Below are positions 26,151-64,000 of a DNA stretch of 64,000 bases, piece by piece. Source of the DNA: Escallonia rubra (lineage: Eukaryota > Streptophyta > Magnoliopsida > Escalloniales > Escalloniaceae). The notes under the pieces are model-generated. The model was not told the DNA's origin and made no database searches. It saw nothing but the letters and a program-made list of their open reading frames with translations. The stretch lies in contig JAVXUO010002860.1 of the NCBI GenBank assembly GCA_033065855.1, forward strand, positions 492,631 through 556,630. Reading direction: 5' to 3'. A program made the translations under genes and the position numbers. Within the stretch, counting starts at the first letter, position 1, and the number at the start of each line of letters is the position of its first letter.

Positions 26151-26555
26151 ATTCACGATCCATTTAAACCCGTGGTTTTTGGGTTCTACCCGTTTACACT
26201 CGTTTATTTACTTGCATTGGTGAATTTAAGTTGTTTTTAAGTGGGCAAATCTGAACGAATATTTGAAGTTATGTTGTTATTGCCTCTCCTAGCATACCTA
26301 GTTTGACCGCAAAAGTGACTACTCCCAAAACACTCCGGTGTATAAATTCTGCAAATGATTTGTGAATTAGTACTAACATCTAACCCGCAGTTAATTGCAA
26401 AGGCTATTTCCAACTTTCGTACTTTCATATACAACTACTTATTACCAAAAAAAAACAATGAAAGATTACACCAAATACATGGTTACATTTACACAAATCT
26501 CAAGCAAAAAAATTGGGGCTTTCCCCCTCTTCATCTTTGTTATCATCTTGGAACT

Positions 26556-29500
26556 CTATTCATCTTTGTTATCATCTTCCTCATAGTTGAAAGGTAAAGG
26601 TCTCTTGAAGGCGCGATACTTCCCAACGTTGTTCAGATGTTCATTCTCCAACCTAATCAAACAAAGGTAAGTAATTTTTCGTTGGTAACGAGAGACAGCT
26701 GCTACGTGACATCATTGGAGACTAATCAATTTTCCACATAAACCAAGAAGTTACCTGAAGAAATTCCATATGCCACGACGAATGATCTCTAGGCAAGCTA
26801 CAAGTGCAACCAAGCTTTCCCCAGGTAAGAAAGAAACCTCGAAATTCAACACGGTCTGCAGCCATGCAAATCTCAACAAGACATTCAAGACCTGCCACAT
26901 TCCATGAACGATGTCAGCATTTAGGAGGAGAAAAGTTCAAACTACACAGGCCTTAGTATCTAAATTCAATACTTTAGCGCTATGTTAAAGGTTTTGGAAG
27001 TGAAAATTCCTTTCTGGTTGCTCACCATGGCTACGAAATATATACTCGTGTGCGGGACGAGAAGCTTGTCTCGTAGAAACCGATTCTTAGACTTGCGTTG
27101 AAGAAGCCCCCAGTCCATAACAAGGTCCCAATATGTACAAAAGATAGCTGCAACAACTGAGGCAACCCCTGCTATGATCTTCCAATGATATCCCTTGTTC
27201 AAAGAATAAGCTGTCCTGGTACTGATCGCTACAATCGTTGAGAAATATTTCAATCCGTTCACTCCCTGCATTACATCTTTTTCTTCCACCAAGCGTCTGA
27301 GGCACTGCAAAAGTGAAGATACAAGGTACGTATAATGACGAACTGATGTGTTTTCAGGCGACTTTCTAGGTCAAATCACAAGGTACGTATAATGACGAAC
27401 TGCTGTGTTTTCGGCGACTTTCTAGGTCAAATGCAGCAAGTAGACACTGGAAACGAAGCATTTGTAAACCCTGAGCATTATCCTTTAAAATAGTGATCAA
27501 GTTACTCCTTAATTAGGCATTGCTTGGTTAAGTTATCTAAGAAGCAGATCAAATGGCAGACGTACCTGTAGAAGACGGTACCAATATGGAACCGAAGCTA
27601 CAATGAAGTAGAAAGTGTTGTACGCGTCATTTGTCTTGCAACTATTTTGCCTCTTCTTGTAGTCTTCCCAGCCATAGTAACAGATATAAAACTCCAAACT
27701 TCTAAAAGCTTGAACCTGATACGTACAAAGTTCAACCATTAGTGTCTACAATAGGCAATAGCAAAGGGAGATTGAAAAAGAAAGAAGAAGAAGAAACGCT
27801 TATGCGAAAGTGGTATATCTAGCGATAATATCATCCCCACCTGGCTAGTCAGTTGGTCAGCCAAGAAAAAATCTGGAAGTAGGACCTGCAGAAGAAAGAC
27901 ATTTTCGAAGATGAGTAAACAATGAGTCTTGTAATATCAGTTACGATACGCTTTTGCTTTGCAAGCCAGCCACCGATTTTCGTTCTTAATTTTACATTGT
28001 AGAGGGGAGCACAGATACAATGAAATACACATTTGAGGAAAAAGAAACGGCTTGAGCGATAAATGATGTTGAATGGGCATAACAGTATGACCGTCACAAG
28101 CTGCAGAGAAAGAAAGGAATCAGTGTCCTGATAAAAAAGTTGTTTCTCAAATGATGTGCAGACTTGAAATCTTTGGATATGGAATCCTTCGGCTGTGAAT
28201 TTGGATGCTAAAAGGAGGTGGGTATGAGCTAGATTATATTTCTTACCCCTACTAATCCGAGAGGAAGCAGCTCGGTGATTGCTTTGTAATCGCCTGTCTT
28301 TGGGTCCATCTCCATGTCAAGGTTCAAGAGGATACTGCCTAGCGCTAGCACCGACAGGCCAAAACTAAGGAGAAGAACTTCCCGATACCGCAGCTCGGTT
28401 CCATGCTTAAAACCAAATATGAACGTGTAATTCACTCGGTACCGCCTCCAGAAGTATATATTTGCAGCATACATCATCATGTGTAAAACAACGAATCCAA
28501 ATAAGCTGCATTGGAAATTTGGAATGACATTTTAGAAATTTCGGTTCCAAATAGAAAGCAAACAAAAATTCAAACTCTCATTTTTGTGTCAAGGTCTAAT
28601 GGCAAAGACTAAGACAGTGTTCATGTAGATTGTTTAAGTTGGTTCAATAGTTACCTATAAAGGGGAAACATGGTTTCCATGTACAATGTTCTTTCTTCTT
28701 CTTTTTCTAGAATATTGCGGGCGCGCATAATCAAAATTAGGGCCAGTGTCAGAGCAACTGAGCAGCCAGCAAAGAATCCTGCAATTTGTGGGATAAATAG
28801 ATTTCAGGCAGAGTTAACCAATTAAACGCCATTATAGGCAGTCGAAAACAAAGCATAACAAAAGATTTCTCAGCCTCCAAAATTACTTCCGCGAAATAGC
28901 TTTGTGACAAAAAAGTTTCCATTATACGTAATATTTGGCCGCTAAAAGTTCTAAGTCCTCCTTTACAATTACTTTACAGGAAATCTGGATGATATATTGA
29001 TTAGTCCTTACCCAAAGAGACTGTTACTGCATGGCTTTCTTTCTTTGCTTTTGGCCTTAAGAAGCGCATGCCCTTACTGCGATTCGAGTTAGTAAAATGC
29101 TTGATGAATGTAGCCTCAACCCTCTCCATAAGCTTGCCAACCTGAAAATTATTCATCAAAACAGGATTAATATCGTGTAAGAAATCTCCATAGGAATTGA
29201 TATTTTCTTAGCCTTATGGCTCAGCAAAAATATTACCTATGTTTAGCTTGTATTTTAACATCAAAATGCTCATATCAGTCATATTAACAGAGTACAACAC
29301 TAATATTGCATAGGCTAATAGTACTTTTTCTTAGAGCTGTTATCGACATTTTCAAATGAAAACGGGCGCAAACTTGCGTCACGAGGCTCACCTCATCAGA
29401 GCTGCCAAGATAGGAGTTGTCGACCATTTTCAAGTAAGGTTTTGAGGTACTTCTTGAAGATATCTGCAACAATTGAACAAGAACATTAGTAAGATAATTT

Positions 29501-30055
29501 GACATTAACTAAGTGTATAAACATCATACACTTTATAGAGGATTATACACATAAATAATCTAAATGAATTACCTTATCGTATTTCTTCATAATCTTCGAA
29601 AATGCCAAAATATTCAAGAAGCTGTTCCATATAAATGGCGAAAAGGTAAGTACAGATTTGACCGAAAGCTGTCCCAAAATGAAAGTCAATATCTTACCTG
29701 TAGCTCTTAAGAAGCCGAAGCTTGTGATAAAATTCGATGAAAGCGATCTTAAGTTGTTCTTGTATTTTGTTGAGGTTCTCTCTGTTGAACTTCAACTCTG
29801 TCTGATTAGGCACTTGGAGGAAGCCTTTGATGGTCGAACGAGGAGTCTCAACCGTGTTGTTCATTGTCACACGGCTAAGTATCTCCATTGGAGCTGGTCT
29901 ACTTCCGCTGATGCTCTTTGGCTTGTGTCGTCGACTATTATGGAGTACTATTGGTTCCTCCTCTTTTCTATGTTTATTACTGTCATCACTTGATTCATCT
30001 GATTGCCCATCTCTACCTGAGCCGTCTTCTTCTATTTTATCCAGAGGAACTCTTC
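26556..30055 (-). pseudogene. PHO1-like SPX-EXS transporter, copy A, exon 1 deleted
   Basis: Exons equivalent to 2-13 of copy B are all present: 30055-29698, 29621-29573, 29463-29392, 29141-29012, 28778-28655, 28505-28247, 28100-27996, 27885-27841, 27715-27566, 27304-27026, 26891-26755 and 26652-26556. All stay open and in phase, and the final exon has an in-frame 3-base loss. Exon 1, with the start codon, the first 193 residues and the promoter, is missing because of a deletion whose scar is at about 31,200. The exon 8 donor is weakened (AAT/GT in place of AAG/GT), and the intron before exon 11 has a 57-bp tandem duplication (27321-27432). With no N-terminal SPX helices, an ordinary PHO1 protein cannot be made. 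The open remaining exons imply recent loss, or use of another start. Confidence 0.85.
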
Positions 30056-31142
30056 CTGCACATATTAGTATTGGACATCAATTTATTGGTGTTGTACCAC
30101 AACATGTTTGGGTCACGATTGCATATTTTTTAAGCAGTTTCACTAGAAGTTTAGCTATTAGCTAGCGCACTTCAAGCTGATTTATACCGTGTTTAACTCA
30201 TAGCAAAGTTGGCAGTGAACCTAGGGCCCCGTCTACGTGAGCGAGCATCGTAAATCTTTTTCCGTGATATCAGTCGTGCAACTAGTATAAGTAACCAAAC
30301 TTCTACCGTGTTCAACTCATAGCAAAGATGGCTCCAGATGCTTTGCAACTAAGTCTACCGTATCCTGCTTTTATATACCTCATCTGTTTTCAAAAGTCCA
30401 TTAGCATTTACGTGTTTTCATTTCAGGTGTAAAAAGCACGGAGCGCAAATTTCGAGCTCATTGTATAGTTTGTTACATTTTAAGCAGACCCTTTAGATAT
30501 TTTGATGGAGAGAAAATTTGGCTGCTACCCCGGTTGGAAGAATCTTCCTCTTACTCCCTGTATAGCGACAATAAATCGTCTCTAAATATTTTTAATGACT
30601 TTTATTTAATGACTCTAAAAAGTGCTGTTAATAATTGTCATTGAAAGTATTAGAAAAAAAATTACGAAATATTTAACGATTATTAATTGTTACTACACAC
30701 GGGAAGATCGGAGAAAGATTCCTGCTGCAATCTGAATAGGAATGTTGTGATGACAACAAAGAACACACCAACGCAACTTGTTGCATCTGTAATTAGTAAG
30801 ACCTCGGTGAATTCCTAGACCCAAGGGATGCAACTTGGTGAACCAGTTGCTAAATCGGCCACGTCTGAGTAAGTTAATGAAGATGTAAGATGTGTGACCA
30901 GACCCCAATAAATGCATACCTTTCCATTTTTGACCACTGACACCAAAAGTTGTGTCATTCATGCATCCTTTATTGGACTTGAAAGCTTAGCCTGGTGTGC
31001 CACAAGGTTTAATCTGGTAGTAGTGAAGAAGTGAAAAAAGGATTTGGATATATATATTTCCTGTTCAAGGAATTACATAATGGCTGTGTATCCCATGTTT
31101 TAGTATCCTCAATTAGTGATTTGGTATCGTTAAAATGGAGAG

Positions 31143-31222
31143 ATATATATATATAGTTCATTTTGAAGAGCAATGCTACTAGAAATATGTTTAGGGTCCT
31201 ATATATATATATATAGTTCATT
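31143..31222. other. Deletion scar replacing PHO1 exon 1 in unit A
   Basis: B and C have about 970 bases (B: about 43,591-44,560) between agaaatat-ttta-gtcct and atgaaaggaaggtgggggct. In A these flanks are separated only by a second copy of atatatagttcatttt (ends at 31222), whose first copy ends at 31164. The extra copy looks templated from about 40 bases away. The break lies about a dozen bases into intron 1, next to the AT/GA microsatellite of B and C. Confidence 0.8.
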
Positions 31223-31784
31223 TTTTAATGAAAGGAAGGTGGGGGCTCGGGTGACGAAGTCAATTTTGAGACCATTCGACGGTTACCATGTGATAGGAGC
31301 CATTCTTTTAATGAAAGGAAGGCCGGCTTGGAACTTTTCTCTTAACACAGACGGAAAGGAACTCTATTTTGCCTTGATGCTGTGGTGGGTGTGAAGTTAT
31401 GGTAGCATTGATTCAGTCTGTCATTTTTGCTTCCATACCCAAAACCTTGCTTGAGAACATGATACGTGGTCAACTGACACTGCATTAATGGTCTAGAAGC
31501 GTCATATTTGGAAAAAGACTGGTTGTTACCCACGGTTTAAAAGAATATTTCTCATGCTCTCTCCATATAGCAATAATTAATGGTCGTAAAATATTTTTAG
31601 TGACTTTTATTTAATTACGCTAAAAAAAACACTGTTAAGAATTGTCGCTTAAAGTGTAAACAGAAAAGTCACTAAAAATATTTAACAACTACTAGTTGTC
31701 ATTTAAAGGAAAATTTCTACGGATTGGACAGCAGCCGAAAACATTGGTTATATTTGTTCTTGGATGTGTTATAAGGTACAAATG

Positions 31785-31844
31785 ATGCTCTAAAAGGATA
31801 CACAAAGTAATGGCAGCCATATTAATGCTCTAAAAGGATACACA
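31785..31844. other. Second deletion scar in unit A with duplicated filler
   Basis: atgctctaaaaggatacaca occurs at 31785-31804 and 31825-31844, at the point where A lacks the segment equal to B 45,063-47,712. Neither copy is seen at the matching flanks in B or C. The right flank enters the middle of a copia-like gag remnant that B and C carry at greater length, so A lost DNA rather than B and C gaining it. Confidence 0.7.
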
Positions 31845-31858
31845 TTTCCGCCCCTGGG

Positions 31859-31960
31859 TGATGTTTGGATCTCCCTTGAGCCTCATTTTCTTGACCAGTC
31901 AAGAACTCCAATTGAAACTGCAGTTGCAATCTTTTAAGAAAGGTACACGGTCAATGGCAC
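31859..31960 (+). pseudogene. Copia-like gag fragment, unit A
   Basis: The short stretch encoding DVWISLEPHFLDQSRTPIE matches the longer gag remnants of units B and C. It is cut on its 5' side by the second deletion. Confidence 0.45.
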
Positions 31961-32210
31961 TTATCTTGAAAACAATCATGATGCATGGAGGAAAAAAAAT
32001 TAGAAGATATCGTCTACTTTCACGCACTAATATACTACTTGTTAACACTATATTTGTCTCTAATAAATGTTTTGACGTTAATGTACTCTTTAGCGACAAA
32101 CAAACGTGTGAAAAACATCATGGACGCGGAAATAGACGTTACCAAACTGAAAATTTCAATTTGTTCTCGTATCCTGTTATGATAAACTTTAACATTCAAG
32201 GATGTCCTGT

Positions 32211-33657
32211 TAGTATTGGCAAAAGTTTCAAAGTCAAAGGAAAAAACCCCTCTCTCTCTCCACTCGACTCTTCACCGCCGACGGTTATTCGGCGAGTGGT
32301 GGCTTGTACATATGTAATAGCGGCTTGGCGTCTGTAATTTCCCTTTAATCGAGTCTTTTGGTGCTCTTCACGGCCTTGGGGAGTTGTGGTTGGCTGTTGC
32401 GCCTGGAATTGCGGTCTGCGTTTGGGTGGCATGGGCTGGGGCTGTGGTTCGGACTGGTGCTAGGGTTGCTGGTGGTAGGTGGTGGTTGCGTTTTGGTTGC
32501 CTCGTCTCCTATTTGGGTTTCGGTCGTGGCTGGGTTGGGCTTGCCTCCTGGTTTGGGGTCGAATTTCGTGGTGGTTCACAGTGGGTTAGGCACGGGGTGC
32601 TGTGGGTGTCGTGGGTCGAGGTGGTAGTCGATAGGGTGACCGAGGGAGGTTTTCTTCCTGCTCGGGGTCCCTCTTCTTTCTTCCCTTTCCCTTCCCAAGT
32701 ACGTCCCCCTCCCCCCTCTCTCGGTTCCTTGTGGGTTGGATGGTATTGGATGGTAGCTCTGTGTGACGCCGGCGTGGGGAGTGGTAGGTTGGAATTGGTG
32801 GTCTGTGGGGGTAGATGGTCGTAGGTGGGGTTGTGGGTTGAGGTGTGGTAATTGGCGGCGAGGGTGGTCGGCAATGGCTATAGTGGTTCTTGGCAACCGG
32901 TGGTGGGGTTCGTTGTGGCTGACGGAGGAACGGTGGCCAGCGATGGCGCCGGTACCAGGCTTGGCGGTGGGTCACGTGGTGCGGTTTGAGGTGGCGTGCG
33001 AGCGTGGGGCTCGATGGGCACTTGGTGTGCATGGTTGACAGGTGTAGCATGGGCACCTGGCGCTCGTTGACTTGTTATGTTCTGGGCTTATCCTTTGGAT
33101 TTTGTTTTTTTGTAGGTTCTTGTCTTTTCTCTAGTCATGGGCATACTTTCGGGACAGGGTGGTTGTCCTAGAGGTGTCAAAAGGGCCGGGCGGCCCGCGG
33201 GCTGGCCCGACCCGGCCCGGTTCTGGCCCGGGCTGGCCCGGCCCCGTCCATGAACAGTAGCGGCCCTGCACAAGCGGGCTTGGGGCCTGGGCCTGGACCA
33301 GGCCTTCAGATTCTGCGAAAAAGCCCGGCCCGGCCCGGCCCGAAAATGGCCCGGGTTTGGCCCGGCCCGGTTTTGGCCCGGGCTTGGCCCGGTTCTGCGG
33401 CCCGGTTGTTGTGCGTGAATCCTTGGCATCATGCTTCATGTTTGGGTGTGTCCCACGTTTGAAAAGGTTCTGTCAACTTGCCATTAACATTTCTTGCGTT
33501 TTCATTTTGGTTTGTCCTGTTCTTTTTTGTTGAGCCCAAAATGACTTTGAGTCATCTGACTTTCTTGTGTTCATGACTCATGTAGGTGTTGGATCTTGGC
33601 TTCTCATTTCTCACGAGAGCCACCAACCCTTCTTTATTTATTTGTGTGCCTATCTGC

Positions 33658-33693
<36 letters not shown>

Positions 33694-34816
33694 CTCATAC
33701 TGAAATTCTTCTTGCTATTTATACCCAAAGCTGTAAATCTTGTTCCTGACCAATTCCGAGATTTTCTGGTGACTTGCTATTTTCATGTTTACTTCAAAAT
33801 GGGTTCATAAGATGAGTGGATAAGACATCCAATTTTTTTTAGTTTCTTGGGTTGGAGTCCATTTAGGATTCAACCACCTACATTGCCATTCTTTGACTAC
33901 ACCATTTTCCACACAACCCCATATTTCAAGATTTCAACCTCTTTCAGCAGCAAAAGCTTAAGAACCCAAATTCTACTCAAGAATAAGCCACTGCCGGTTC
34001 AAGTCGTGTACCGGTATCTAGCTAACCATATGTTATTACCATCTTTGAATGTTTGCCTTTTTGGTCCCCTGTTTAAACAGTTTCTCTGTTTGGAAATAAT
34101 CTCACAATGTATATGGCAATATTTCCTTTTGGACTCAACTTTTGGGATTAAGGTATCGATATCTAAGAACGAACAAATAAAAGCATGTAGTCACCAATTC
34201 TTGGGATTAAGGTATCGATATTTAAAAGGAAATACTCATGTAGTCACCAATTCTTTTTTCCCAATTCAAGATAAATTCATGAGGAAGTGGTATCTCTAAT
34301 AAAACAACATTATGAGTAAAGAGGGATAATTATAGCCAATTAAAGAAAGAAATTACACACAAAAAAAAATTGGGCCCGACCCTAAATATTGGGCCTAGGG
34401 CCAGGGCTTGGACTGGGCCTAGCATTTCTCCCCAGTCGGCCCAGCCCAGATTGGCAGCCACTTGGCCCGGCCCTGTTTCAAGCCCGATGGGCCCGGGCCG
34501 GGCGGCCCAAGCCCGGCCCGTTTGACACCTCTAGGTTGTCCCTTGTGTCTAGTTAGTGTCTTAATTTGGATAAAAGTGTACTTATCTTTTATGCAGGTAG
34601 TCTTCGGTGGAGGTTCCTTGGCGATAAAGTCGTTCTTGTTTTAGCCGCTCTAGGATATTCAAGGACATCTGGCTATGTGCCGATCTTTGTCTGTGGTTAC
34701 ATTGCAGAGAAGCGGTCACCTGTTATTTTCTTTTATTGTATTCTATCTTGTACTACTTGCTTATTAATGATATGATTGGTAGGATTTTTACCTATAGTCA
34801 AAACAAAACAAAAAAA
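32211..34816 (+). mobile_element. Retroposon-like insertion private to unit A
   Basis: Units B and C read straight through aacgatgtcctgtataatga. In A this site is split by 2.6 kb, flanked by gatgtcctgt (32201-32210) and gatgtcatgt (34817-34826), a near-perfect 10-bp duplication. The right end is A-rich (caaaacaaaacaaaaaaa), as in a poly(A)-retrotransposed sequence on the plus strand. The left part is GC- and G/T-rich with no recognisable reverse transcriptase. The right part before the A tail reads like a LINE or transcript 3' end. It could be an internally deleted LINE or a retroposed transcript. It was later interrupted by an hAT element. Confidence 0.65.
33169..34533. mobile_element. hAT-type element nested in the retroposon
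   Basis: The ends are tagaggtgtcaaaagggccg and, reverse-complemented from the right, tagaggtgtcaaacgggccg. A perfect 8-bp target duplication, ggttgtcc, lies at 33161-33168 and 34534-34541. The 8-bp duplication and the AGxGGTGtc-type terminus fit the hAT superfamily. Both subterminal regions (about 33,185-33,410 and 34,375-34,520) are packed with ggcccgg/ccgggcc motifs, likely transposase-binding repeats. The 1.36-kb interior is AT-rich, has a (TC)n tract at about 33,663-33,690 and no transposase, so it is non-autonomous. Confidence 0.88.
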
Positions 34817-34826
34817 GATGTCATGT

Positions 34827-36780
34827 ATAATGAGCAAAAGTACAAAAGTGAGAGCATGACACGAAAGTTTGATACCTGCCAAAAAAATAAGTAACTAAAA
34901 AGTTTGATCCGTGTTGTCGTTTGACTATTGATAGTATACTTGTGATGGAAATCAATTGGTACTAATTATTTTCCCAAATGTTGGGTGCATATATCGATCT
35001 CATTTTCTCCCTTGCCTCGGTCTCTAATCTAATCTAATAAATTTGTTGTGTGGTCTAAGGTACAATATCCGTTATTGTACCCGAGCTATAACCCCGTGCA
35101 AATGCACGTGTGAATGAGTAAAAGTAAATGTCTTTTTTGTAAGGAAAATCTAAGTTTTGCTAACCAAGTTGGATTTAATTTAATTTTATGTAGAGTATTA
35201 ATGGGCAACCTTAACAAAGTTATATCCCATATTGAGCCAAGTATTTTAAAATCAATGGCATACTCTGCTTTTAAACTGTGAACCAGATGGTGCCACCTTA
35301 TTTAGAACTTTAAAATTAAGATAAAAACTTGGAAAGAGTACCAATATTATTTTTTGCCTTTGTATGTATGGATTTCTTTGGCAACAGTATTTTTCAGTCA
35401 TAATGGTTCGTGGATAGAAAATGGCAAGATTTTTTTTTTATATATATAATCACGCAAGGAAAAAGGAGGAGCCAAACTATCCAATTCAAACTTAATGAAC
35501 AATAAATTCGACTTTGTTTGGGTACGTCTATTTTTACGTCGCTAAAAGAGTAATTTTCTCGCTTTCTTGTATTATGTTAACAACAAGTGGATGCTAACAA
35601 AGATTTTCTAATTAATTTCTCGATCCTTTAGTACTCAGTTCTAGCAAGGTGTGAATGTCATCTCATTGTTGCGGGATCTAACTGAAAAAAAGTTTTGCGT
35701 TATTTATTAGTACTAGAGTGACTTGCTTCGCTCCTTGTTCAGCCATGGGATAAAGTTTCATCACACTAGTGTTGAAACTATACATTGCATCGACAAAAAT
35801 CATATTCCGTACTCTATATGCTTTGGGAGTAAAGCTTGCTTTCATTCAATCTATTACCAAAGACAAAAGGAGAAAAAGAACACCAATTTATAAGTGGTAT
35901 AAACAATAAACCTGAGTGATAATCAGCCATAAACTTATTAATAAAAAGATAACTTCAAAATGGAGTAGCAAGTATCATTTTCCTTGGGGCATGCTAGGCC
36001 AGGGTCAGTTTGAGGCTAAAAATTGATTGTGGTCAAAAGGCAAATTATTGTTATTGCTTGAACATAGAAAATTGCTTTGGAGATGGTCAAGCACAAAAGT
36101 ATTTGTTATATAATTAATTAAAAGTGCGTCAAGGAATTGCTTTTGGATTTCAAAAGTTCTTTTAATACTCAAATTTAGCTAAAGGAGCGGAGGAATTTGT
36201 TGTGTTTTAAAAAAACTTGTCATTTGTTCAGAAACTATTCTATGTAACACATCAAAACATGGCCCCATAGAAAAATGGGTGGAATGAATTCCTAACAAAC
36301 CGGTGAACGTAAATTGGATTTTAGCAAGATACTAATACTTTTTTATTTCTTTTGGTTTTAAGGTACAACTTGTTGACTTTAAGAGTCTAATACTAATACT
36401 TTGACGTTAATTGGTTTAGCAAGATACTAATACTTTGACGATTCCAATATTATTGCTCTTAATATTAATCTAACAATGTTATTAAGAATAATTTCATGAC
36501 TTATCGTAGCATGGAAGATTATCTGATTAAAGACCTTGGTTTTTGAGGACTTGGACTTGGGCTTAGTATAGGTTTCTTCGGTTGTAACTAATCAAATCTA
36601 AATTTTCTTAAAGATCTTCTAGAAAACCAAAAAAGATCAAACAAAGAAAGTATTTTGAAGGTTTTTCATTCGAAGGAAAAAGCTTTCTTTCGACTGAATT
36701 CTTCAGTCGTAAAATGTTCATTTCTCATTTATCTTTCATTCGACCGAAAATAATTTTTCATTTGACTAAATCTTTCAGTC
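34827..36780. other. AT-rich spacer of unit A
   Basis: Sequence shared with B (48,062-50,030) and C (61,331-63,260). No coding exon was recognised on either strand. Confidence 0.6.
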
Positions 36781-36784
36781 TTTG

Positions 36785-36935
36785 CTTATCTAGTTTTAAA
36801 ATCGTTTTCATTCAAAGCAAACACTTTTCATTCGAAGCACAAGTTTTCATCCGAAGCAAAAGTTTTTCAATCGAAGCAAAAGTTTTCAGTCGAAGCAGAA
36901 GTTTTCATTCGAAGCAAATCGGTTTCATTCGACTG
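36785..36935. repeat. Degenerate 19-21-bp tandem repeats, unit A
   Basis: About seven imperfect copies of a unit like aagttttcattcgaagcaaa occur in a row. The same array is present in units B (about 50,030-50,155) and C (about 63,262-63,388). The open frame across it (Phe/Ser/Lys-rich) is a by-product of the repeat. Confidence 0.8.
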
Positions 36936-37079
36936 AATCTTTCAATAGTTTCAAAATATCTCTACTCTTCCAATTGATTCGAATGAATCTTAGATTTATT
37001 CGACCGAATTCTTCAAAGATGTTTTCACAACCATTTCCTTCCACTGGTTTTATTCATCCATTCGGATGAAACTCTATGT

Positions 37080-37300
37080 TATCCATTTAACTACTTTTCA
37101 ACGATCATATTCCTTCGTAGTATAAAAGCGACTCTTAGAGAATTTACTACTCACTTTTCTGATCTCTGAAAATTCTCTCTTACTCTTCTAAAAAAGACTC
37201 TCTCATCTTATTCCTACATATCTATACTATTCTTTGAGCGACTTCCTCTTTGAGAAATTGAATAGCAAGATTCTTGATTCATTTCTTTAAGGTTTCAGAT
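37080..37300 (+). promoter_or_regulatory. TATA-bearing, LTR-like segment, unit A
   Basis: A tagtataaaagcgac box is followed by pyrimidine-rich sequence with many CTCT tracts, much like the U3/R part of a plant LTR or a promoter. I could not place LTR ends, a primer-binding site or a polypurine tract, so it is only a suggestion. B and C carry the same segment (about 50,345 and 63,575). Confidence 0.3.
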
Positions 37301-37310
37301 CTTCCCACAT

Positions 37311-37363
37311 AAGGTGTAGCTTATCTTTTTTTTTTTTTGTTGGTAAATAAGGTGTAGCTTATC
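37311..37363. mobile_element. Micro-insertion: poly-T stub between 15-bp direct repeats
   Basis: aaggtgtagcttatc occurs at 37311-37325 and 37349-37363 around a 23-base insert, a T run followed by gttggtaaat. On the minus strand this is accaac plus oligo-A, close to the tail of the LINE remnant at 23,087. It looks like a nearly completely truncated retrotransposition event. B (about 50,537-50,592) and C (about 63,769-63,824) also have it, with one extra T in the left repeat. Confidence 0.6.
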
Positions 37364-37679
37364 ATGGATGAGAATTGAAATGAGACATTCTGATTTGAGA
37401 GAAAGGAAGGATGCAGTCCGTATTAAGTAAACGACAGCATTTCTGTGTGCACCGTAGGCAATGCGCTTGTGGTGACACGCAGATTTCTTTTGCAGTTATT
37501 AATAACTTTAATTAGTTATGCTAAACCAATATTCTTTTAAATTGACACTAAAAATATTTATAAAAATATCACCCGTGGCAATCCCATTTTTATAGGCTAA
37601 TCAAGTATCGAAGATTCATGGAGTATTATTAATGCCTTTGACCTAATTAAAACCGGCTCCACATACACACTGACCATAC

Positions 37680-37925
37680 AGATGGTGGGTCCCGCCACGT
37701 GTCACCATCGTGCAGGACCAAAACTTGTGGGAGAGCCACCAGCCGTTGATGTCCCCTTCTTTGCCTGAATAAATAGGGTTTGCGGGGGGTCCCCCTCTTT
37801 TGTAGGAAACTCCCAAAAGGATAAGTGGGTCTCCCTTTCCTAGGGTTTGTTTCTCTCTCTCTCTCTCTCTCTTTGCCTTCTTCTTTTCATTTTCCCGGAT
37901 TAGTCGGCTCCCAATGTGGTGTCCG
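37680..37925 (+). promoter_or_regulatory. Promoter-like block at right end of unit A
   Basis: In plus orientation there is a G-box (gccacgtgtc, about 37,695), a TATA-like aataaatagggtt (about 37,768), then a (TC)n tract (about 37,853-37,872) and a pyrimidine-rich leader. Repeat homology to the next unit starts about 65 bases further on. Transcription from it would run antisense into the 3' end of the next PHO1 copy. Function is inferred from motifs only; a matching block in B lies at about 50,905-51,140. Confidence 0.35.
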
Positions 37926-43490: not shown

Positions 43491-43554
<64 letters not shown>

Positions 43555-51140: not shown

Positions 51141-54100
51141 TGTGGTGTCCGGAAATCGGGTGGTCTAACCAAAAAAAAATAACCAAAAAAAAAAATTCGT
51201 AGGGGTAAAAAACCGATTCACGATCCATTTAAACCCGCGGGTTTTTGGGTTCTACCCGTTTACACTCGTTTATTTACTTGAATTGGTGAATTTAAGTTGC
51301 TTTTAAGTGGGTAAATCTGAACGGATATTTAAAGTTATGTTGTTATTGCCTCCCATAACGTACCTAGTTGGACCGCAAAAGTGGCTAATCCCAAAACACT
51401 CGGGTGTATAAATTCTGAAAATGATTTGTGAATTAGTACTAACATCTAACCCGCAGTTAATTGCAAAGGCTATTTCAAACTTTCATACTTTCATATACAA
51501 CTACTTATTACCAAAAAAAAAACAATGAAAGATTACACCAAATACATGATTACATTTACACAAATCTCAAGCAAAAAAATTGGGGCTTTCCCCCTCTTCA
51601 AGTGTTTCCTTAAGTTCTCGTACTTGCCCGATTCCTCATTGTAGAATCTTGAAACTCTATTCTTCTTTGTTATCATCTTCTTCATAGTTGAAAGGTAAAG
51701 GTACAGACTTGAAGGCGCGATACTTGCCAACGTTGTTCAGATGTTCATTCTCCAACCTAATCAAACAAAGGTAAGTAATTTTTCGTTGGTAACGAGAGAC
51801 AGCTGCTACGTGACATCATTGGAGACTAATCAATTTTCCATATAAACCAAGAAGTTACCTGAAGAAATTCCATATGCCACGACGAATGATCTCTAGGCAA
51901 GCTACAAGTGCAACCAAGCTTTCCCTATGTAAGAAAGAAACCTGGAAATTCAATACTGTCTGCAGCCATGCAAATCTCAACAAGACATTCAAGACCTGCC
52001 ACATTCCATGAACGATGTCAGCATTTAGGAGGAGAAAAGTATCTAAATTCAATACTTTAGCGCTATGTTAAAGGTTTTGGAAGTGAAAATTCCTTTATGG
52101 TTACTCACCATGGCTACGAAATATATACTCGTGTGCGGGACGAGAAGCCTGTCTCGTAGAAACCGATTCTTAGACTTGCGTTGAAGAAGCCCCCAGTCCA
52201 TAACAAGGTCCCAATATGTACCAAAGATAGCTGCAACAACTGAGGCAACCCCTGCCATGATCCTCCAATGATCTCCCTTGTTCAAAGAATAAGCTGTCCT
52301 GGTACTGATCGCTACAATCGTTGAGAAATATTTCAATCCGTTCACTCCCTGCATTACATCTTTTTCTTCCACCAAGCGTCTGAGGCACTGCAAAAGTGAA
52401 GATACAAGGAAATTGTGGAATTTCATAGATTCACAAGGTGTGTATAATGACGAACTGATGTGTTTTCAGGCGACTTTCTAGGTCAAATGCTGCAAGTAGA
52501 CACTGGAAAGGAAGCATTTGTAACCCCTGAGCATTATCCTTTAAAAGAGTGATCAAGTTACTCCTTAATTAGGCATTGCAATTGGTTAAGTTATCCAAGA
52601 AGCAGATCAAATGGCAGATGTACCTGTAGAAGACGGCACCAATATGGAACCGAAGCTACAATGAAGTAGAAAGTGTTGTATGTGGCATTTGTCTTGCAAC
52701 TATTTTGCCTCTTCTTGTAGTCTTCCCAGCCATAGTAACAGATATAAAACTCCAAGCTTCTAAAAGCTTGAACCTGATACGTACAAAGTTCAACCATGAG
52801 TGTCTACAATAGCAAAGGGAGATTGAAAAAGAAAGAAGAAGAAGAAGAAACGTTTATGCGAAAGTGGTATATCTAGCGATAATATCATCCCCACCTGGCT
52901 AGTCAGCTGGTCAGCCAAGAAAAAATCTGGAAGTAAGACCTGCAGAAGAAAGACATTTTTGAAGATGAGTAAACAATGAGTCTTGTAATATCGGTAACGA
53001 TACGCTTTTGCTTTGCAAGTCAGCCACCAATTTTTGTTCTTAATTTTACCTTGTAGAGGGGAGCACAGATACAATGGAAAACACATTTGAGGAAAAAGAA
53101 ACGGCTTGAGCGATAAATGATGTTGAATGGGCATAACAGTATGACCGTCACAAGCTGCAGAGAAAGAAAGGAATCAGTGTCCTGATACAAAAAGTTGTTT
53201 TTAAAATGATGTGCAGACTTGAAATCTTTGGATATGAGATTTGGCTGTGAATTTTGATGGTAAAAGGTGGTGGGGATGAGTTAGATTATCTTTCTTACCC
53301 CTACTAATCCGAGAGGAAGCAGCTCGGTGATTGCTTTGTAATCGCCTGTCTTTGGGTCCATCTCCATGTCAAGGTTCAAGAGGATACTGCCTAGCGCTAG
53401 CACCGACAGGCCAAAACTAAGGAGAAGAACTTCCCGATACCGCAACTCGGTTCCATGCTTAAAACCAAATATGAACGTGTAATTCACTCGGTACCGCCTC
53501 CAGAAGTATATATTTGCAGCATACATCATCATATGTAAAACAACGAATCCAAATAAGCTGCATTTGAGATTCGGAACGACATTTTAGAAATTTCGGTTCC
53601 AAATAGAAAGCAAACAAAAATTCAAACTCTCATTTTTGTGTCTAGGTCTAATGACAAAGACTAAGACAGTGTTCATGTAGATTGTTTAAAAGTTACCTGT
53701 AAAGGCGAAACAATGGTTTCCATGTACAATGTTCTTTCTCCTTCTTTTTCAAGAATATGGCGGGCACGCATAATCAAAATTAGGGCCAGTGTAAGAGCTA
53801 CTGAGCAGCCAGCAAAGAATCCTGCAATTTGTGGGATAAATAGATTTCAGGCAGAGTTAACCAATTAAACGCCAGTATACGAAAGCATAACAAAATATTT
53901 ATCAGCCTCCAAAATTACTTCCGCGAAATAGCTTTGTAACGAAAAAGTTTCCACGATGGTATTCTAGATGCTATACGTAATATTTGGCCGCTAAAAGTTC
54001 TCAGTCCTCCTTTACAACTTTACAGGAAATGTGGATGATATATTGATTAGTCTTGTGGAGTTACTTACCCAAAGAGACTGTTACTGTATGACTTTCTTTC

Positions 54101-55913
54101 TTTGCTTTTGGCCTTAAGAAGCGCATGCCCTTACTGCGATTCGAGTTAGTAAAATGCTTGATGAATGTAGCCTCAACCCTCTCCATAAGCTTGCCAACCT
54201 GAAAATTATTCATCAAAACAGGATTAATATCGTGTAAGAAATATACATAGGAATTGTTATTTTCTTAGCCTTATGGCTCAGCAAAAATATTACCTATGTT
54301 TAGCTTGTATTTAACATCAAAATGCTCATATCAGTCATATTAACAGAGTACAACACTAATATTGCATAGGCTAATAGTACTTTTTCTTAGAGCTGTTATC
54401 GACATTTTCAAATGAAAACGGGCGCAAACTTGCGTCACGAGGCTCACCTCATCAGAGCTGCCAAGATAGGAGTTGTCGACCATATTCAAGTAAGGTTTTG
54501 AGGTACTTCTTGAAGATATCTGCAACAATTGAACAAGAATATATTAGTGAGATAAATTGACATTAAGTAAGTGTATAAACTTCATACACTTTATAGAGGA
54601 TTATACGCATAATTAATCTAAATGAACTACCTTATCGTATTTCTTCATAATCTTCGAAAATGCCAAAATATTCAAGAAGCTGTTCCATATAATGGCGAAA
54701 AGGTAAGTACAGATTTGACCGAAAGCTGTCCCAAAATGAAAGTCAATATCTTACCTGTAGCTCTTAAGAAGCCGAAGCTTGTGATAAAATTCGATGAAAG
54801 CGATCTTAAGTTGTTCTTGTATTTTGTTAAGGTTCTCTCTGTTGAACTTCAACTCTGTCTGATTAGGCACTTGGAGGAAGCCTTTGATGGTCGAACGAGG
54901 AGTCTCAACCGTGTTGTTCATTGTCACACGGCTAAGTATCTCCAGTGGAGCTGGTCTACTTCCGCTGATGCTCTTTGGCTTGTGTCGTTGACTATTATGG
55001 AGTACTATTGGTTCCTCCTCTTTTCTATGTTTATTACCATCATCACTTGATTCATCTGATTGCCCATCTCTACCTGAGCCGTCTTCTTCTATTTTATCCA
55101 GAGGAACTCTTCCTGCACATAGTAGTATTGGACATCAAGTTCTAGTGTTGTACCACAACTTGTTTGGGTCATGATTGCATATTTCTCAAGAGTTTCTCTA
55201 GAAGTTTAGATACTAGCCAGCACTTCAAGCTGATTTATACCGTGTTCAACTTATAGCAAAGTTGGCAGTGAACCTACGCCCCCGTCTACGTGAGCGAGCG
55301 TTGTAAATCTTTTTCCGTGATATTAGTCGTGCAACTAGTATAAGTAACCAAACTTATACCGTGTTCAACTCATAGCAAAGATGGCTCCAGATGCTTTGCA
55401 ACTAAGTTTATCGTATCCTGCTTTTATATACCTCATCTGTTGTCAAAAGTCCATTAGCATTTACGTGTTTCCATTTCAGGTGTAAAAAGCACGGAGCGCA
55501 AATTTCGAGCTCACTGTATAGTTTGTTACAGTTTAAGCAGACCCTTTAGATATTTTGATAGAAAAAATTTTGGCTGCTACCCCGGTTGGAGGAATCTTCC
55601 TCCTACTCTCTGTATAGCGACAATAAATCGTTTCTAAATATTTTTAACGACTTTTATTTAATGACTCTAAAAAAGTGTTGTTAATAATTGTCATTGAAAG
55701 TATTAAAAGAAAAATCGCGAAACATTTAACGATTATTAATTGTCACTGTACACGGAATTGGAGAAAGATTCCTACTACAATCTGAATAAGAGTGCTGTGA
55801 TGACACCAAAGAACACGCCAACGCAACTTGTTGCATCTTTAATTAGTAAGACCTCGGTGAATTCCTAGACCCAAGGGATGCAACTTGGTGAACCAGTTGC
55901 TAAGGGGCCGTTT

Positions 55914-56403
55914 AACACGGTTTTTTTTTTTGCTCTTTTTTTCAGTTTTAAAAATTGGAAAAATTAGGAGTGTTTGGTAACACTTTTTTTTTCAATTTAA
56001 AAAGTGGCTTTTTAAATTGTAGAGTAAAAAAAAAAGGAAAAAGCTCTTCTTCTTTTTACTTAAATTTTTTTTTTTTAGACCTCCACCACAACGCACCCAC
56101 CGCCGACAGCCACCTCCGGCCGCCGGAAGCCACCACCGAGTGGCCGCCACCACCGCCGGCAGCCAACTCCGGCGACAACCGCCGACAGCCACCACCACCG
56201 TCGACCACCGCTACGCTCCACCACCGCCACCGCAAACCACCAAAAAAAAAAAAATCAAAATAAAAAGGGTTACCAAACACCAAAAAAAAAAAAAAAACTC
56301 AAAAAAAAAAAAAGGTTATCAAACACCCACTTGTTTTTGTAAAAAAAAAAAAAATTAAGCTACTCCTTTAAAACTTAAAACTAAAAAAAAAACTCTCAGA
56401 CCC
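55914..56403. mobile_element. MITE in PHO1 intron 1, copy C
   Basis: Same element and same insertion point as in copy B, about 490 bases, differing by homopolymer lengths and scattered substitutions. It is an orthologous insertion inherited by duplication. Confidence 0.7.
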
Positions 56404-56717
56404 AAATCGGCCACGTCTGAGTAAGTTAATGAAGATGTAAGATGTGTGACCAGACCCCAATAAATGCATACCTTTCCATTTTTTACCACTGACACCAAAA
56501 GTTGTGTCATTCATGCATCCTTTATTGGACTTGAAAGCTTAGCCTGGTGTGCCACAAGGTTTAATCTGGTAGTAGTGAAGTAGATAAAAAAGGATCTGGT
56601 AGTGTGCCACAAGGTTTAATCTGGTGTGCCACAAGGTTTCCTGTTCAAGGAATTACATAATGGCTGTGTATCCCATGTTTTAGTGTCCTCAATTAGTGAT
56701 TTGGTATCGTTAAAATG

Positions 56718-56719
<2 letters not shown>

Positions 56720-56779
<60 letters not shown>
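56720..56779. repeat. (AT)n(GA)n microsatellite near PHO1 exon 1, copy C
   Basis: Same compound microsatellite as in copy B, with slightly different repeat numbers. Confidence 0.95.
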
Positions 56780-56783
<4 letters not shown>

Positions 56784-57414
56784 GAAGAGCAATGCTACTA
56801 GAAATATATTTACAGTCCTAAAAGAAAAACTTACTGCTTGCTCTGGCGGCGGATGGAGTAGATGCCGATAACACTGCCGTGGAAGCAGCAACGTCGGCGG
56901 CAAGACGAGTGATCTCGCCTGACGTATTGAACGCTACGTGCCACTGCGGATTATCCACCTTAATCCGGAAGGCAATCAAGGCATCCATTTGCTTGTTCAG
57001 CACGGCCGCCTCCTTCATCACCTCGACCACTTTATCCTTGTAAAACTTGACAACTTTGTTAAACTCGTCATCGAGCTTCCTAAAGTACAGCAGCTCCTTC
57101 CCTCCTCCCTCGTCAGCCGCCATCAGGAACGTTGTCTCGTAGCGGTCTCCATCATCGTCCCGCTTCACCGTGTTCACTAGGATCGCCTGGCTCTCAATGT
57201 CGGTCGGTTCCGTGGGGGAAGTATGATGCCTTTGTGTCAGGCCGCTGAAAGCGCGGTACAGCGTAAGCCTTCGCTTCAGCGTGGGCTGCGCCGGGTGGTT
57301 TCTCGGTTTGGAGACTTGGATTTCCTTCAAGAGGGTTTTCAGGTACTCGTAATCCACGTATGCCTCTTTCCATTCGGGCACCAATTGTGAAGCTAGTTCT
57401 TTCCCAAACTTCAT

Positions 57415-60400
57415 CTTTCTCGATCTCGCCTTTTTTAAGTCACCAAATCCTCGTTAAGTAGGCACTTTAGGGTCTTGGAGCTTGTAGTGTCAACTACTTT
57501 TCCGCTCTTGTTCTTACTCTCGCTCTCACTCAAATTTCTTTACTTAGATCAGAGATACCGAGCAGTGAAGTGCGTTCTTATACCATTGGTATGTCTATCT
57601 TGCTTTCCCAATACAGCTCAGAAGAAAACACCTACTAGGAGTGAAGAATGGGAAGGAACGTCTACAGCTCTGAAATTAGGAGATAGGGGAACGTCTGTTA
57701 GATAAGCATTGGTTTGTGTGGGAGTATATATATGGAAGAGGGAGAGAGACAGAGGCGGCTTGAAGCTCTAGGTTGGAGCAATTTTTTAATGAAAGGAAGG
57801 TGGGGGCTCGGGTGACGAAGTCAATTTTGAGACCCTTCGTCGTTACCATGTGATAGGAGCCCAACCCTGAATAATGTATGCTTGGAACTTTTCTCTTAAC
57901 ACAGACGGAAAGGAACTCTATTTTGCCTTGATGCTGTGGTGGGTGTGAAGTTATGGTAGCATTGATTCAGTCTGTCATTTTTGCTTCCATACCCAAAACC
58001 TTGCTTGAGAACATGATACGTGGTCAACTTACACTGCATTAATGGTCTAGAAGCGTCATATTTGGAAAAAGACCGGTTGTTACACACGGTTTAAAAGAAT
58101 ATTTATCCTACTCTCTCCCTATACCAATAATTAATGATCGTAAAATATTTTTAGTGACTTTCATTTAATTACGCTAAAAAAAATACTGTTAAGAGTTGTT
58201 GCTTAAAGTGTAAATAGAAAAGTCACTTAAAACATTTAACAACTATTAGTTGTCATTATATACGGGATTGAAGGAAGATTTTTACAAACCGGTTAACAGC
58301 CGAAAACATGGTAGCAGCCATATAATTAACGCTCCCGAATTAGCTAATGGTAACCTTCGTACTACTAATTGATGCACATGATTTGTATAATTCATAATCA
58401 TGTGAAACAGTGCAGAAGTGTTATTTGACAATTAGGGTGTGCCAATATGGCTAACATAAAGCATCGTTCTTGTTCTGAATTTACTTTCAAAGGTTTGTCA
58501 TTTAATAGATGGTTTATAATGCCCTCGGTATCATGAAAATATTTGAGCACCATAGAAACTACAAAAGTTTATTCTTTGACATTTTCAGAAGATAATATTG
58601 CTCTGCGACAGAACTAAAAAAAAATGAAAAGTGCCAATAGATCTTATTTTGACAAAACACGTTCTTTTTTTTTTTGGTTTAGATTTTTTTTTCTTTGGAG
58701 GTCTCAGTGGTCTTAGCTACTGTAGCACCTTTCAAATATTGGCATGTTATTGGGTCTTGTTTTCTTAATTTCTCTTTGCCCTTTTTGAATGGATGGATTG
58801 ACCTTATTATTTATTTATTAATCATATTTAAGGTCGTCTTGGTAAAAGCATGTCCCTGATCCATCTGTGCACACCAGAAATGGCAATCGCGACCCTATTA
58901 TTTATTAATCATATTTTTCACCGTAGGTATTATTTATAACCAAAAAAAGTGAGGACTTGTCTTTAGCTAAATGTCACTTTAACGGCATTAAGAATTTTGT
59001 TGTTATTTGCAAAAAGAAGATGATGATAGTTTGGTAAGTAATTTGCTCATGTGAGGAAACTAACTTATGTAAAATGTGTTATTATTTGCGGATAAGTATG
59101 CTTGGTTATTTTTTAAAAGGTATTTATTTTAGCAGAAGTAATTTAGTAATTACTTTTTATATGATGTTGTATTATTACTTCTGGCTAAACACCACAAAAC
59201 AAATCGTGACTTGAATCTAAGTCCTTTTTGTTCTTCCTCTAATGTTAGAAATTTTGCTGTCTATCAATTGCGAAATTCAGGTTCCAAACTTAAGCGGTTG
59301 TATTATGTAATCTCAGGGTTAACCAAAATCTAGTCTCTTTGTCTTTGTGTATGTACTTTCTTTCTGTTTTAACCTTTGTTTCCATTCTTAGAGAAGTTCT
59401 CATCAAGAGTCAAAAATGAATCTACACATTCGGAATCGATTGTAGGGTGCATGATTCCCTACGAATTGATTGCAAGTTTGCATCTAAGCGTAAACAATGG
59501 CACGCCCGATGTTACACTTTTAATTTGAAAGTAAAAATGCCAAGCTGTAGAATTCAGGGTGTTTGAAAATATGTTTCTAAGTAAATCCTTGAGATTTCAA
59601 GCTCGATTTAATAGATTAAGGTCAACTTTGGCTAGAATACAGGGTGTTTGAAAATATGTTTCTAAGTAAATCCTTGAGATTTCAAGCTCGATTTAATAGA
59701 TTAAGGTCAACTTTGGACTACTTTCTCTTTCATTATAGATGAAGCCGCGACACTGACTTGATTTAATGAAATTGTGGAATGATCTAATGGATCGTATGGA
59801 TGCAAACCATCCCAACTTATTCTACCAACTTTTTGGATAGAAACTTCTTATGAATTATATATAGAAGTTTGAAAACTCTATTAAAACATGGATGAGAGTA
59901 GATCATCCATCTACAACGTAGTATATTTTTTGAGAAGATAATATTGCCCTGCGACAGAAATAAAAAAAAGTTTGAAAAGCGTCAATAGCACTTATTTCAA
60001 CAAAACATGTTCTTCCTTTCGCTTTTAAAGAAAGTTCGAAAAGTAGGAGAATACAGTATTGATAGGTAGGAACTTTTCTTCAAAACATGTTTTCCCTTTG
60101 GAGGTCTCAGTTAGTCTTAGCCACTTTAGGTTTTGGACTGGGCTCTCATCTGACTGAATATTTAAAGAGAGAGTCTCCCCCACCATTTTACCAGAATTTG
60201 AATGTTCTAGGGTAGGACTTTTCAAATATTGGCATATGTAGTTGACTCTTGTTTTCTTGAATTTTCCTTCTCCCTTTTTCCAAGTGGGTGGACGGATTGA
60301 CTATGTATTTATTAGTTAATCATATCTAATGTAATGTCGTCTTGGTGTCCTAGTCCTCCTCTAGAACTTCAGTCTTTTCAAAATTTCCAGATTTCTGCCA

Positions 60401-60820
60401 TGCGACTCTCATAAGATTGATCAATGCTGAACAGTAAAGTTCCTTTTTCCTCAGCGTTTCCCTTTCTTCGGCATTCTTCTGTACCCTCCTGCTGGACTCA
60501 TCATGCATACAGCTCCTCCTTAATTTGGCCGTCAACCTTCTCACATTCCCACCCATCAGAATCAGATTACTCCCACTCGACCACGGCCCTTTACGGTTCC
60601 ACTCAAGGTTGCCCATCTCTTCTTCATCCTCCCCTTTCTTCCTTTTCAAACCATGCTTCAGCTTCCTCGTCTCCAGCCTCTGTTTTCTCCTCTTCTCCCA
60701 TGCTTGTTGCTCCCAATGTCACGCACCGGCCTTGTGTCTCTTAAACTGGATGCCGACTGTCTTGGTCAGTCATGACGTTTAGGTCTTGTTGATGGCTCTT
60801 TTCTTTCCATGCCCCTCTCA
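57415..60820. other. Promoter and spacer of unit C
   Basis: The first 360 bases match the PHO1 copy B promoter and 5' UTR (TATA at about 57,724-57,733). The rest matches the unit B spacer and includes the 85-bp tandem duplication at 59548-59716. No additional gene was recognised. Confidence 0.55.
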
Positions 60821-61068
60821 GGTTATCAGTGATGCCATTAATGGTCAAGCTATTACCAGTCCTGCCTACACTGCTTGGGTTGCACGGAACAAGGTCTTTG
60901 TTCATGGCTTCATCCTACCTTAACCAAGGACATCCTCCAAGAATTTCATGACCTCTCTTCCTCTCGTGATGTTTGGATCTCCCTTGAGCCTCATTTTCTT
61001 GACCAGTCAAGAACTCCAATTGAAACTGCGTTGCAATCTTTTAAGAAAGGTGCACGGTCAATGGCACT
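60821..61068 (+). pseudogene. Copia-like gag remnant, unit C (frameshifted)
   Basis: Same broken gag fragment as in unit B, including the frameshift before TLTKDILQEF. Confidence 0.55.
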
Positions 61069-64000
61069 TATCTTGAAACCAACCATGATGCATGGAGAAA
61101 AAAAAATTAGAAGAGATAGTCTACTTTCACGTCTACTTTCACGCACTAATAAATTACTTGTTCACACTATATTTGTCGCTAATATATGTTTTGACGCTAA
61201 TGTACTCTTTAGTGACAAACAAACGTGTAAAAAACATCATAGGATGCGGAAATAGACGTTACCAAACTGAAAATTTCAGTTTGTTCTCATATCTTGTTAT
61301 GATAAACTTTAACATTCAACAATGTCCTGTATAATGAGCAAAAGTACAAAAGTAAGAGCACAACGAGATACAAAAGTTTGATACCTGCCAAAAAGATAAG
61401 TAATTAAAAAGTTTGATCTGTGTTGTCGTTTGACTATTGATAGTGTACTTGTGATGGAAATCAATTGGTACTAATTATTTTCCCAACCGTTGGGTGCATA
61501 TATTGATCTCATTTTCTCCCTTGCCTCGGTCTCTAATAAATTTGTTGTGTGGTCTAAGGTACAATATCTGTTTTTGTACCCGAGCTATAACCCCGTGCAA
61601 ATGCACGTGTGAATGAGTAAAAGTAAATGTCTTTTTTGTAGGAAAATCTAAGTTTTGCTAACCAGGTTGGATTTAATTTAATTTTATGTAGAGTAATGGG
61701 CAACCTTAACAAAGTTATATCCCATATTGAGCCAAGTATTTTAAAATCAATGTCATACTCTACTTTTAAATTGTGAACCAGATGGTGACACCTTATTTAG
61801 AACTTTAAAATTAAGATAAAAACTTGGAAAGAGTATCAATATTATTTTTTGCCTTTGTATGTATGGATTTCTTTGGCAACAGTATTTTTCAATCATAATG
61901 CTTCGTGGATAGAAAATGGCAAGAATTTTTATTTTTTATTTTTATAATCACCCAAGGAAAAAGGAGGAGCCAAACTATCCAATTCAAACTTAATGAACAA
62001 TAAATTCGACTTTGTTTGGGTACGTCTATTTTTACGTCGCTAAAAGAGTAATTTTCTCACTTTCTTGTATTATGTTAACAACAAGTGGATGTTAACAAAG
62101 ATTTTCTAATTAATTTTTGGATCTTTTAGTACTCAGTTCTAGCAAGGTGTGAATGTCATCTCATTGTTGTGGGATCTAACTGAAAAAAAGTTTTGCGTTA
62201 TTTATTATTAGAGTGACTTGCTTCGCTCCTTGTTCAGCCATGGGATAAAGTTTCATCACAAAAGTGTTGAAACTATACATTGCATCGACAAAAATCATAC
62301 TCCGTACTCTATATGCTTTGGGAGTAAAGCTTGCTTTCATTCAATCTATTACCAAAGACAAAAGGAGAAAAAGAACACCAATTTATAAGTGGTATAAACA
62401 ATAAACCTGAGAGATAATCAGCCATAAACTTATTAATAAAAAGATAACTTCAAAATGGAGTAGCAAGTTTGAGGCTAAAAATTGATTATGGTCAAAAGGC
62501 AAATTATTGTTATTGCTTGAACATAGAAAATTGCTTTGGAGATGGTCAAGCACAAAAGTATTTGTTATATAATTAATTAAAAGTGCGTCAAGGAATTGCT
62601 TTTGAATTTCAAAAGTTCTTTTAATGCTCAAATTTGGCTAAAGGAGCGGAGGAATTTGTTGTGTTTTAAAAATACTTGTCATTTGTTCGGTAACCATTCT
62701 ATGTAACACATCAAAACATGGCCCAATAGAAAAATGGGTGGAATGAATTCCAAACAAACCGGTGAACCTTAATTGGATTTTAGCAAGATACTAATACTTT
62801 TTTATTTCTTTTGGTTTTAAGGTACAACTTGTTGACTTTAAGAGTCTAATACTAATACTTTGACGTTAATTGGTTTAGCAAGATACTAATACTTTGACGA
62901 TTCCAATATTATTGCTCTTAATATTAATCTAACAATGTTATTAAGAATAATTTCATGACTTATCGTAGCATGGAAGATTATCTGATTAAAGACCTTGGTT
63001 TTTGAGGACTTCGACTTGGGCTTAGTATAGGTTTCTTCGGTTGTAACTAATCAAATCTAAATTTTCTTAAAGATCTTCTAGAAAACCAAAAAAGATCAAA
63101 CCAAGAAAGTATTTTGAAGGTTTTTCATTCGAAGGAAAAAGCTTTCTTTCGACTGAATTCTTCAGTCGTAAAATGTTCCTTTCTCATTTATCTTTCATTC
63201 GACCGAAAATAATTTTTCATTTGACTAAATCTTTCAGTCTTTGCTTATCTAGTTTTAAAATCGTTTTCATTCAAAGCAAACACTTTTCATTCGAAGCAAA
63301 AGTTTTCATCCGAAGCAAAAGTTTTTCAATCGAAGCAAAAGTTTTCAATCGGAGCAGAAGTTTTCATTCGAAGCAAATCGGTTTCATTCGACTGAATCTT
63401 TCAATAGTTTCAAAATATCTCTACTCTTTCAATTGATTCGAATGAATCTTAGATTTATTCGACCGAATTCTTCAAAGATGTTTTCACAACCATTTCCTTC
63501 CACTGGTTTTATTCATCCATTCGAATGAAACTCTATGTTATCCCTTTATCTACTTTTCAACGATCATATTCCTTCGTAGTATAAAAGGGACTCTTAGAGA
63601 ATTTATTACTCACTTTTCTGATCTCTGAAAATTCTCTCTTACTCTTCTAAAAAAGACTCTCTCATCTTATTCCTACATATCTATACTATTCTTTGAGCGA
63701 GTTCCTCTTTGAGAAATTGAATAGCAAGATTCTTGATTCATTTCTTTAAGGTTTCAGATCTTCCCACATAAGGTGTAGCTTTATCTTTTTTTTTTTTTGT
63801 TGGTAAATAAGGTGTAGCTTATCATGGATGAGAATTGAAAGGAGACATTCTGATTTGAGAGAAAGGAAGGCTGCAGTCCGTGTTAAGTAAACGACAGCAT
63901 TTCTGTGTGCACCGTAGGCAATGCGCTTGTGGTGACACACATATTTCTTTTGCAGTTATTAATAACTTTAATTAGTTATGCTAAACCAATATTCTTTTAA
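61069..64000. other. AT-rich spacer of unit C to window end
   Basis: Equivalent to B 47,813-50,790. It holds the 19-21-bp repeat array (about 63,262-63,388), the TATA-bearing segment (about 63,575) and the poly-T micro-insertion (about 63,769-63,824). No gene was recognised. Confidence 0.6.

Follow-up and report, generated by a model that had tools for sequence, protein, structure and literature searches.

Probable birth-and-death evolution in a tandem array of PHO1-type phosphate-exporter genes of Escallonia rubra

How many PHO1-type phosphate-exporter genes stand side by side at one locus of Escallonia rubra, and which of them could still make a full-length protein? The window analysed here, a stretch of 64,000 nucleotides (positions 492,631 to 556,630 of the forward strand of contig JAVXUO010002860.1, below C1149, in assembly GCA_033065855.1), had been described in an initial annotation as a three-copy PHO1 tandem array with one intact gene between two differently broken ones. 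We find that the locus most probably holds four or more such genes in tandem, A, B and C in the window and D on contig C1150, under birth-and-death evolution. The earlier proposal that the array is in flux was supported; B is intact, and A and C are broken in different ways.

Self-comparison of the window revealed three direct repeat units, beginning at 26147, 37986 and 51212, each of which carries a PHO1-type gene (SPX and EXS) on the minus strand. The unit lengths given earlier, 11.8, 13.2 and at least 12.8 kb, proved correct.

Unit A: 26147..37985, minus strand, 11,839 bp
Unit B: 37986..51211, minus strand, 13,226 bp
Unit C: 51212..64000, minus strand, at least 12,789 bp, truncated where the contig ends

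Being adjacent, homologous and in the same orientation on one contig, A, B and C form a tandem array. Identity is 97.1% over the 14.47 kb that align between B and C, and 93.7% over 4.35 kb between A and B, with shorter pieces of the latter pair at 89-98%. The contig sequence runs from B into C without any N, and the junction sequence at 37986 and 51212, the starts of B and C, is the same. The contig is 556,630 bases long, and the right edge of the window is its end, which lies inside the array.

The gene of unit B is organized as follows.

Gene B: 38431..44185, minus strand, 13 exons, 795 codons then a stop, intact SPX-EXS gene of PHO1 type
Gene B, exons 1-5: 44185-43606, 41885-41528, 41452-41404, 41292-41221 and 40971-40842, minus strand
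Gene B, exons 6-9: 40594-40471, 40331-40073, 39928-39824 and 39713-39669, minus strand
Gene B, exons 10-13: 39547-39398, 39161-38883, 38769-38633 and 38530-38431, minus strand

The gene model comes from anchors combined with simple splice-site scoring rather than from cDNA; all 12 introns are GT-AG, and the open frame of 795 codons reported for B was confirmed up to its stop. B has both domains that mark the PHO1/XPR1/SYG1 proteins, an N-terminal SPX (Pfam PF03105; exon 1, E 3.9e-43; exon 2, E 2.9e-17) and a C-terminal EXS (PF03124; exon 7, E 3.1e-14; exon 11, E 8.8e-31). The spliced protein matched Arabidopsis PHO1;H1 (PDB 9jf8) over residues 1-789 with an E-value of 9.6e-145, and more weakly human XPR1 (best E 1.3e-67) and a SYG1 homologue (E 4.1e-39). 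Together, the domain hits and the PHO1;H1 match bear out the PHO1 identity first assigned to these genes. PHO1;H1 (9jf8, 9ik4), which B resembles across both domains, is taken here as a relative with a solved structure, and no orthology is claimed. The sections of PMC10231389 and PMC13083964 drawn on here assign sensing to SPX and transport to EXS, and the maize PHO1 family is described in PMC5029887, likewise consulted in part. We propose that B, and perhaps D, encodes a membrane phosphate exporter in which the N-terminal SPX would sense inositol pyrophosphates.

The count of three copies with a single intact gene was not sustained. The assembly (566 Mb in 3,222 contigs) was searched with bases 38000-44400 of B, and the best 40 of 4,675 candidates comprised A, B, C and a 96% match to bases 1-2763 of C1150; the remainder mostly represented a repeat in intron 1. 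C1150, a contig of 156,728 bases with the number following that of C1149, opens within exon 2 of a fourth unit.

Unit D: C1150:1 to approximately 8895, outside the window, intact in exon 1 and in as much of exon 2 as is visible

Exon 1 of D (580 nt) and the 262 nt of exon 2 that are visible are open, and the donor and acceptor are kept. Since D opens C1150 with an intact exon 1 and C1149 breaks off within the array, the stated count of three copies and one intact gene is too low. The EXS half of D was not found in a protein search with the EXS half of B, for which all 38 of 38 candidates were scored; the close matches were A, B and C only, and weaker ones lay on C2628, C1358, C1357, C1993 and C2966. 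Among the latter, C1357, C1358, C1993 and C2966 hold PHO1-like EXS exons that are less closely related (33-81% per piece), with near-equal scores for C1357 and C1358. Over approximately 8.8 kb, mismatches amount to 2.54% between B and C, 2.91% between B and D and 2.69% between C and D. These about equal distances disfavour D as an allele of C.

Copy C retains all exons and has lost its frame.

Gene C: 51657..57414, minus strand, 13 exons, reading frame broken in exon 6, stop in exon 7

The one-base insertion noted earlier in C was confirmed. Exon 6 (53821-53697) is 125 nt long, one more than the 124 nt of A and B, and the resulting frame ends at a stop at 53461, in exon 7, after 470 codons, so that it is lost before EXS; the splice sites are kept. 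The extra base is derived in C, because neither A nor B has it. With a frameshift that abolishes the full-length product, C is a probable pseudogene. The non-synonymous and synonymous divergence (dN and dS) between B and C is 0.0028 and 0.0105 over exons 2-13. In the patch around the lesion (40417-40731 in B terms), A and B agree at six sites, A and C at four and B and C at nine, and all three differ at two. The extra base is not an isolated difference, and on the assembled consensus alone an error in C may be conceivable.

Copy A is broken at its other end.

Gene A: 26556..30055, minus strand, exons 2-13 only, 600 open codons, exon 1 absent
64-bp stretch in A: 31156..31219, minus strand, in place of approximately 1.04 kb of B (43509-44551), from self-comparison and reading of the letters

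The earlier statement that A lost exon 1 held: no exon 1 match was found in 26000-34800, whereas exons 2-13 are all present with every splice site kept. The segment of B that is replaced in A holds exon 1 and approximately 370 bp upstream of the ATG, and the 64-bp stretch still carries, by eye, sequence from the beginning of intron 1. A is consequently left with neither start codon, nor first SPX half, nor proximal upstream DNA, and the missing exon 1 makes it a probable pseudogene in the same sense as C. The possibility that A never had exon 1 was rejected, as B, C and D have it and the paralogue on C2628 covers a portion of it, corresponding to B residues 72-154. An insert of approximately 2.6 kb confined to A (~32211-34826) is flanked, by eye, by 10-bp direct repeats with one mismatch; it is partly above 50% G+C and resembles a mobile-element insertion.

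The remaining frame of A carries a record of constraint. Between A and B, one gap (3 nt, frame preserved) falls in 1,805 aligned exon positions and 16 gaps in 1,610 intron positions (Fisher P 7.6e-5), and over 600 codons the NG86 method gave a dN of 0.0143 and a dS of 0.0512. With the C2628 paralogue as outgroup (4.2 kb of it were read), we could place 15 of the 37 codons that differ between A and B on the A side (8 silent, 7 replacement) and 6 on the B side (3 and 3); the other 16 (7 silent, 9 replacement) were unplaceable. For the A-side ratio of 8:7, P is 0.012 if the silent share is taken as 0.235 and 0.050 if it is taken as 0.30; so few changes cannot demonstrate selection once exon 1 had been lost. 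The comparison of dN and dS over the shared exons, which had been suggested as a check, therefore indicates average constraint on A and does not separate selection after the loss from selection before it.

The order of events can be partly read from intron 1 and from the EXS halves.

Dispersed repeat of approximately 490 bp: 42678..43176, no strand assigned, within intron 1 of B and likewise of C and D, with A keeping the empty site
Probable conversion tract: 38193..40416, minus strand, three differences between B and C, covering exons 7-13 and introns

Among the matches listed, the intron-1 repeat occurs on at least 36 other contigs at up to 86% identity. Because it is shared at one place in intron 1 and the site in A is uninterrupted, B, C and D have a common ancestor that postdates the split from A. 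A deletion in A as the source of this approximately 500-bp difference was rejected on the same uninterrupted site and on the dispersed nature of the extra DNA. In the tract of approximately 2.2 kb at 38193-40416 (ungapped sites), A alone differs at 84 sites, A and B agree against C at 3, and A and C agree at 0, against 24, 18 and 10 sites, respectively, in 41986-42660 (Fisher P 5.3e-12); both regions were picked post hoc, after the profile had been seen. There is no B-C gap in the tract, and the longest identical run between the two copies is 1,128 bp, introns included. Intron and flanking divergence in the compared stretch is 4.8% for A-B, 5.3% for A-C and 1.9% for B-C. The tract of excess identity is bounded by older divergence and is not accounted for by constraint, as in interlocus conversion, with the post hoc choice of regions applying here too. 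Gene conversion appears the simplest cause of the near-identity of B and C in the EXS half. We suggest that the units multiplied by unequal crossing-over, and that parts of B and C were afterwards homogenised by gene conversion.

The nature of the two broken copies leaves room for other readings. The initial annotation raised the possibility of decoy proteins from A and C, which our analysis does not support. The 470 open codons of C include the whole SPX region, and a stable SPX-bearing fragment could in principle act as a decoy. However, the product as it stands would consist of SPX, approximately one membrane-like stretch (by eye) and a frameshifted tail, and the stop falls in the seventh of 13 exons, with six exon junctions after it. 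Plant transcripts with a stop ahead of several junctions are usually degraded, and decay of the C messenger RNA would be expected because of this position. A decoy from C is very improbable, and we favour C as a loss-of-function copy through frameshift and probable decay of its messenger. For A, a working, N-terminally clipped PHO1 of approximately 545 residues, starting at a methionine in exon 2 and retaining EXS without the first SPX half, is somewhat less remote, and still unlikely. Its frame is open with all exon 2-13 splice sites kept, the gap and silent/replacement patterns show past constraint, and A has an ATG at codon 250, a position that is Leu in B and, as far as a weak alignment allows, in the C2628 paralogue. 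On the other side, exon 1, the start codon and approximately 370 bp of upstream DNA are gone; three out-of-frame ATGs in exon 2 precede the first in-frame ATG, which has no purine at -3; and the replacements in A include K559, M668, H740 and V781, residues that the paralogue shares with B. A simple scan of 30056-34800 for a replacement first exon with a donor score of at least 7.5 returned one weak 14-codon candidate, which counts against both a decoy from A and a clipped exporter. A deletion of residues 84-114 leaves PHO1 with some phosphate export, and SPX ligand-residue mutants fail to complement the null in work cited by the same source (PMC7179932, in the part consulted). It is a long shot that A was kept as an exporter freed from part of inositol pyrophosphate control, with conversion keeping the neighbouring EXS halves alike. 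We consider A to be a probable loss-of-function copy, through its lost start codon and first SPX half.

A different concern is that the array is partly an effect of assembly, with B, C and D in part alleles or misjoined repeats, or with the extra base of C a consensus error near the contig end. The contig terminates within the array, C differs in frame by a single base, and the 97.1% likeness of B and C falls in the range of plant allelic differences. Yet B and C follow one another on one contig without N and with the same junction sequence, D is equally far from C and from B, and the best 40 of 4,675 candidates included no further contig with the gene unit. Moreover, the extra base sits among several other real-looking differences, next to 2.2 kb without a B-C gap. 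We regard an assembly effect as unlikely, though it is the least improbable of the alternatives. Several points nevertheless weigh against birth and death as the explanation for the array. An assembly chimera is a possible cause of the near-identity of B and C. Contig number, orientation and fit are the grounds for placing C1150 after C1149. In addition, the open frame of A, its gap pattern and its 8:7 count show constraint that is an average and includes the time before exon 1 was lost. The birth-and-death reading of the array, with B intact, A and C decayed and D continuing on the next contig, remains the one that we prefer.

Other features of the window were also recorded. The 2.7 kb at 45010-47709, which separates the gene of B from unit C, is not present in A and may be an insertion or a deletion. 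An 85-bp tandem repeat occurs in two copies in each of B (46311-46479, 100% match) and C (59548-59716, 98%). To the left of the array, an exon-like open reading frame at 15302-15721 resembles a pyridoxal phosphate (PLP) enzyme of Cys/Met metabolism (PF01053, E 1.1e-30), a 115-bp tandem repeat in three copies lies at 20541-20882, and an RNase H/reverse-transcriptase-like fragment (PF13456, E 7.8e-18) lies on the minus strand at 23280-23663.

The tandem expansion of PHO1 families, which the initial annotation gave as known, is already in print. In the portion of PMC3680083 used here, 55 of 125 Class IA PHO1 genes lie in tandem repeats of two to three genes, with none in Class II, and the ancestral gene has 14 exons, the first intron having been lost in 119 of 130 Class I genes. 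On exon structure alone, the 13 exons of B and its uninterrupted 580-nt exon 1 fit such a first-intron loss. The Escallonia array resembles the dicot Class IA clusters of that account in its neighbouring SPX-EXS genes, and differs in having at least four units, two of them broken. Within the same genome, the PHO1-like gene on C2628 that served as outgroup shows 49-64% identity in the individual pieces of the EXS half and encodes the stretch of exon 1 corresponding to B residues 72-154; it differs in being located elsewhere in the genome. A literature search for PHO1 combined with tandem and pseudogene or gene conversion, judged by titles only, returned no title about PHO1 gene clusters.

The array is an ordinary case of PHO1 copies being born, converted and lost, in a family for which tandems were already known. 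Within a single array, genes for phosphate exporters can be seen to multiply, exchange sequence and decay, and a gene count taken from the assembly would come out too low because a further copy is cut off by a contig end. For the phosphate nutrition of Escallonia rubra, B and D are the first candidates to examine. Should A prove functional, it would offer a natural test of PHO1 action without the first SPX half.

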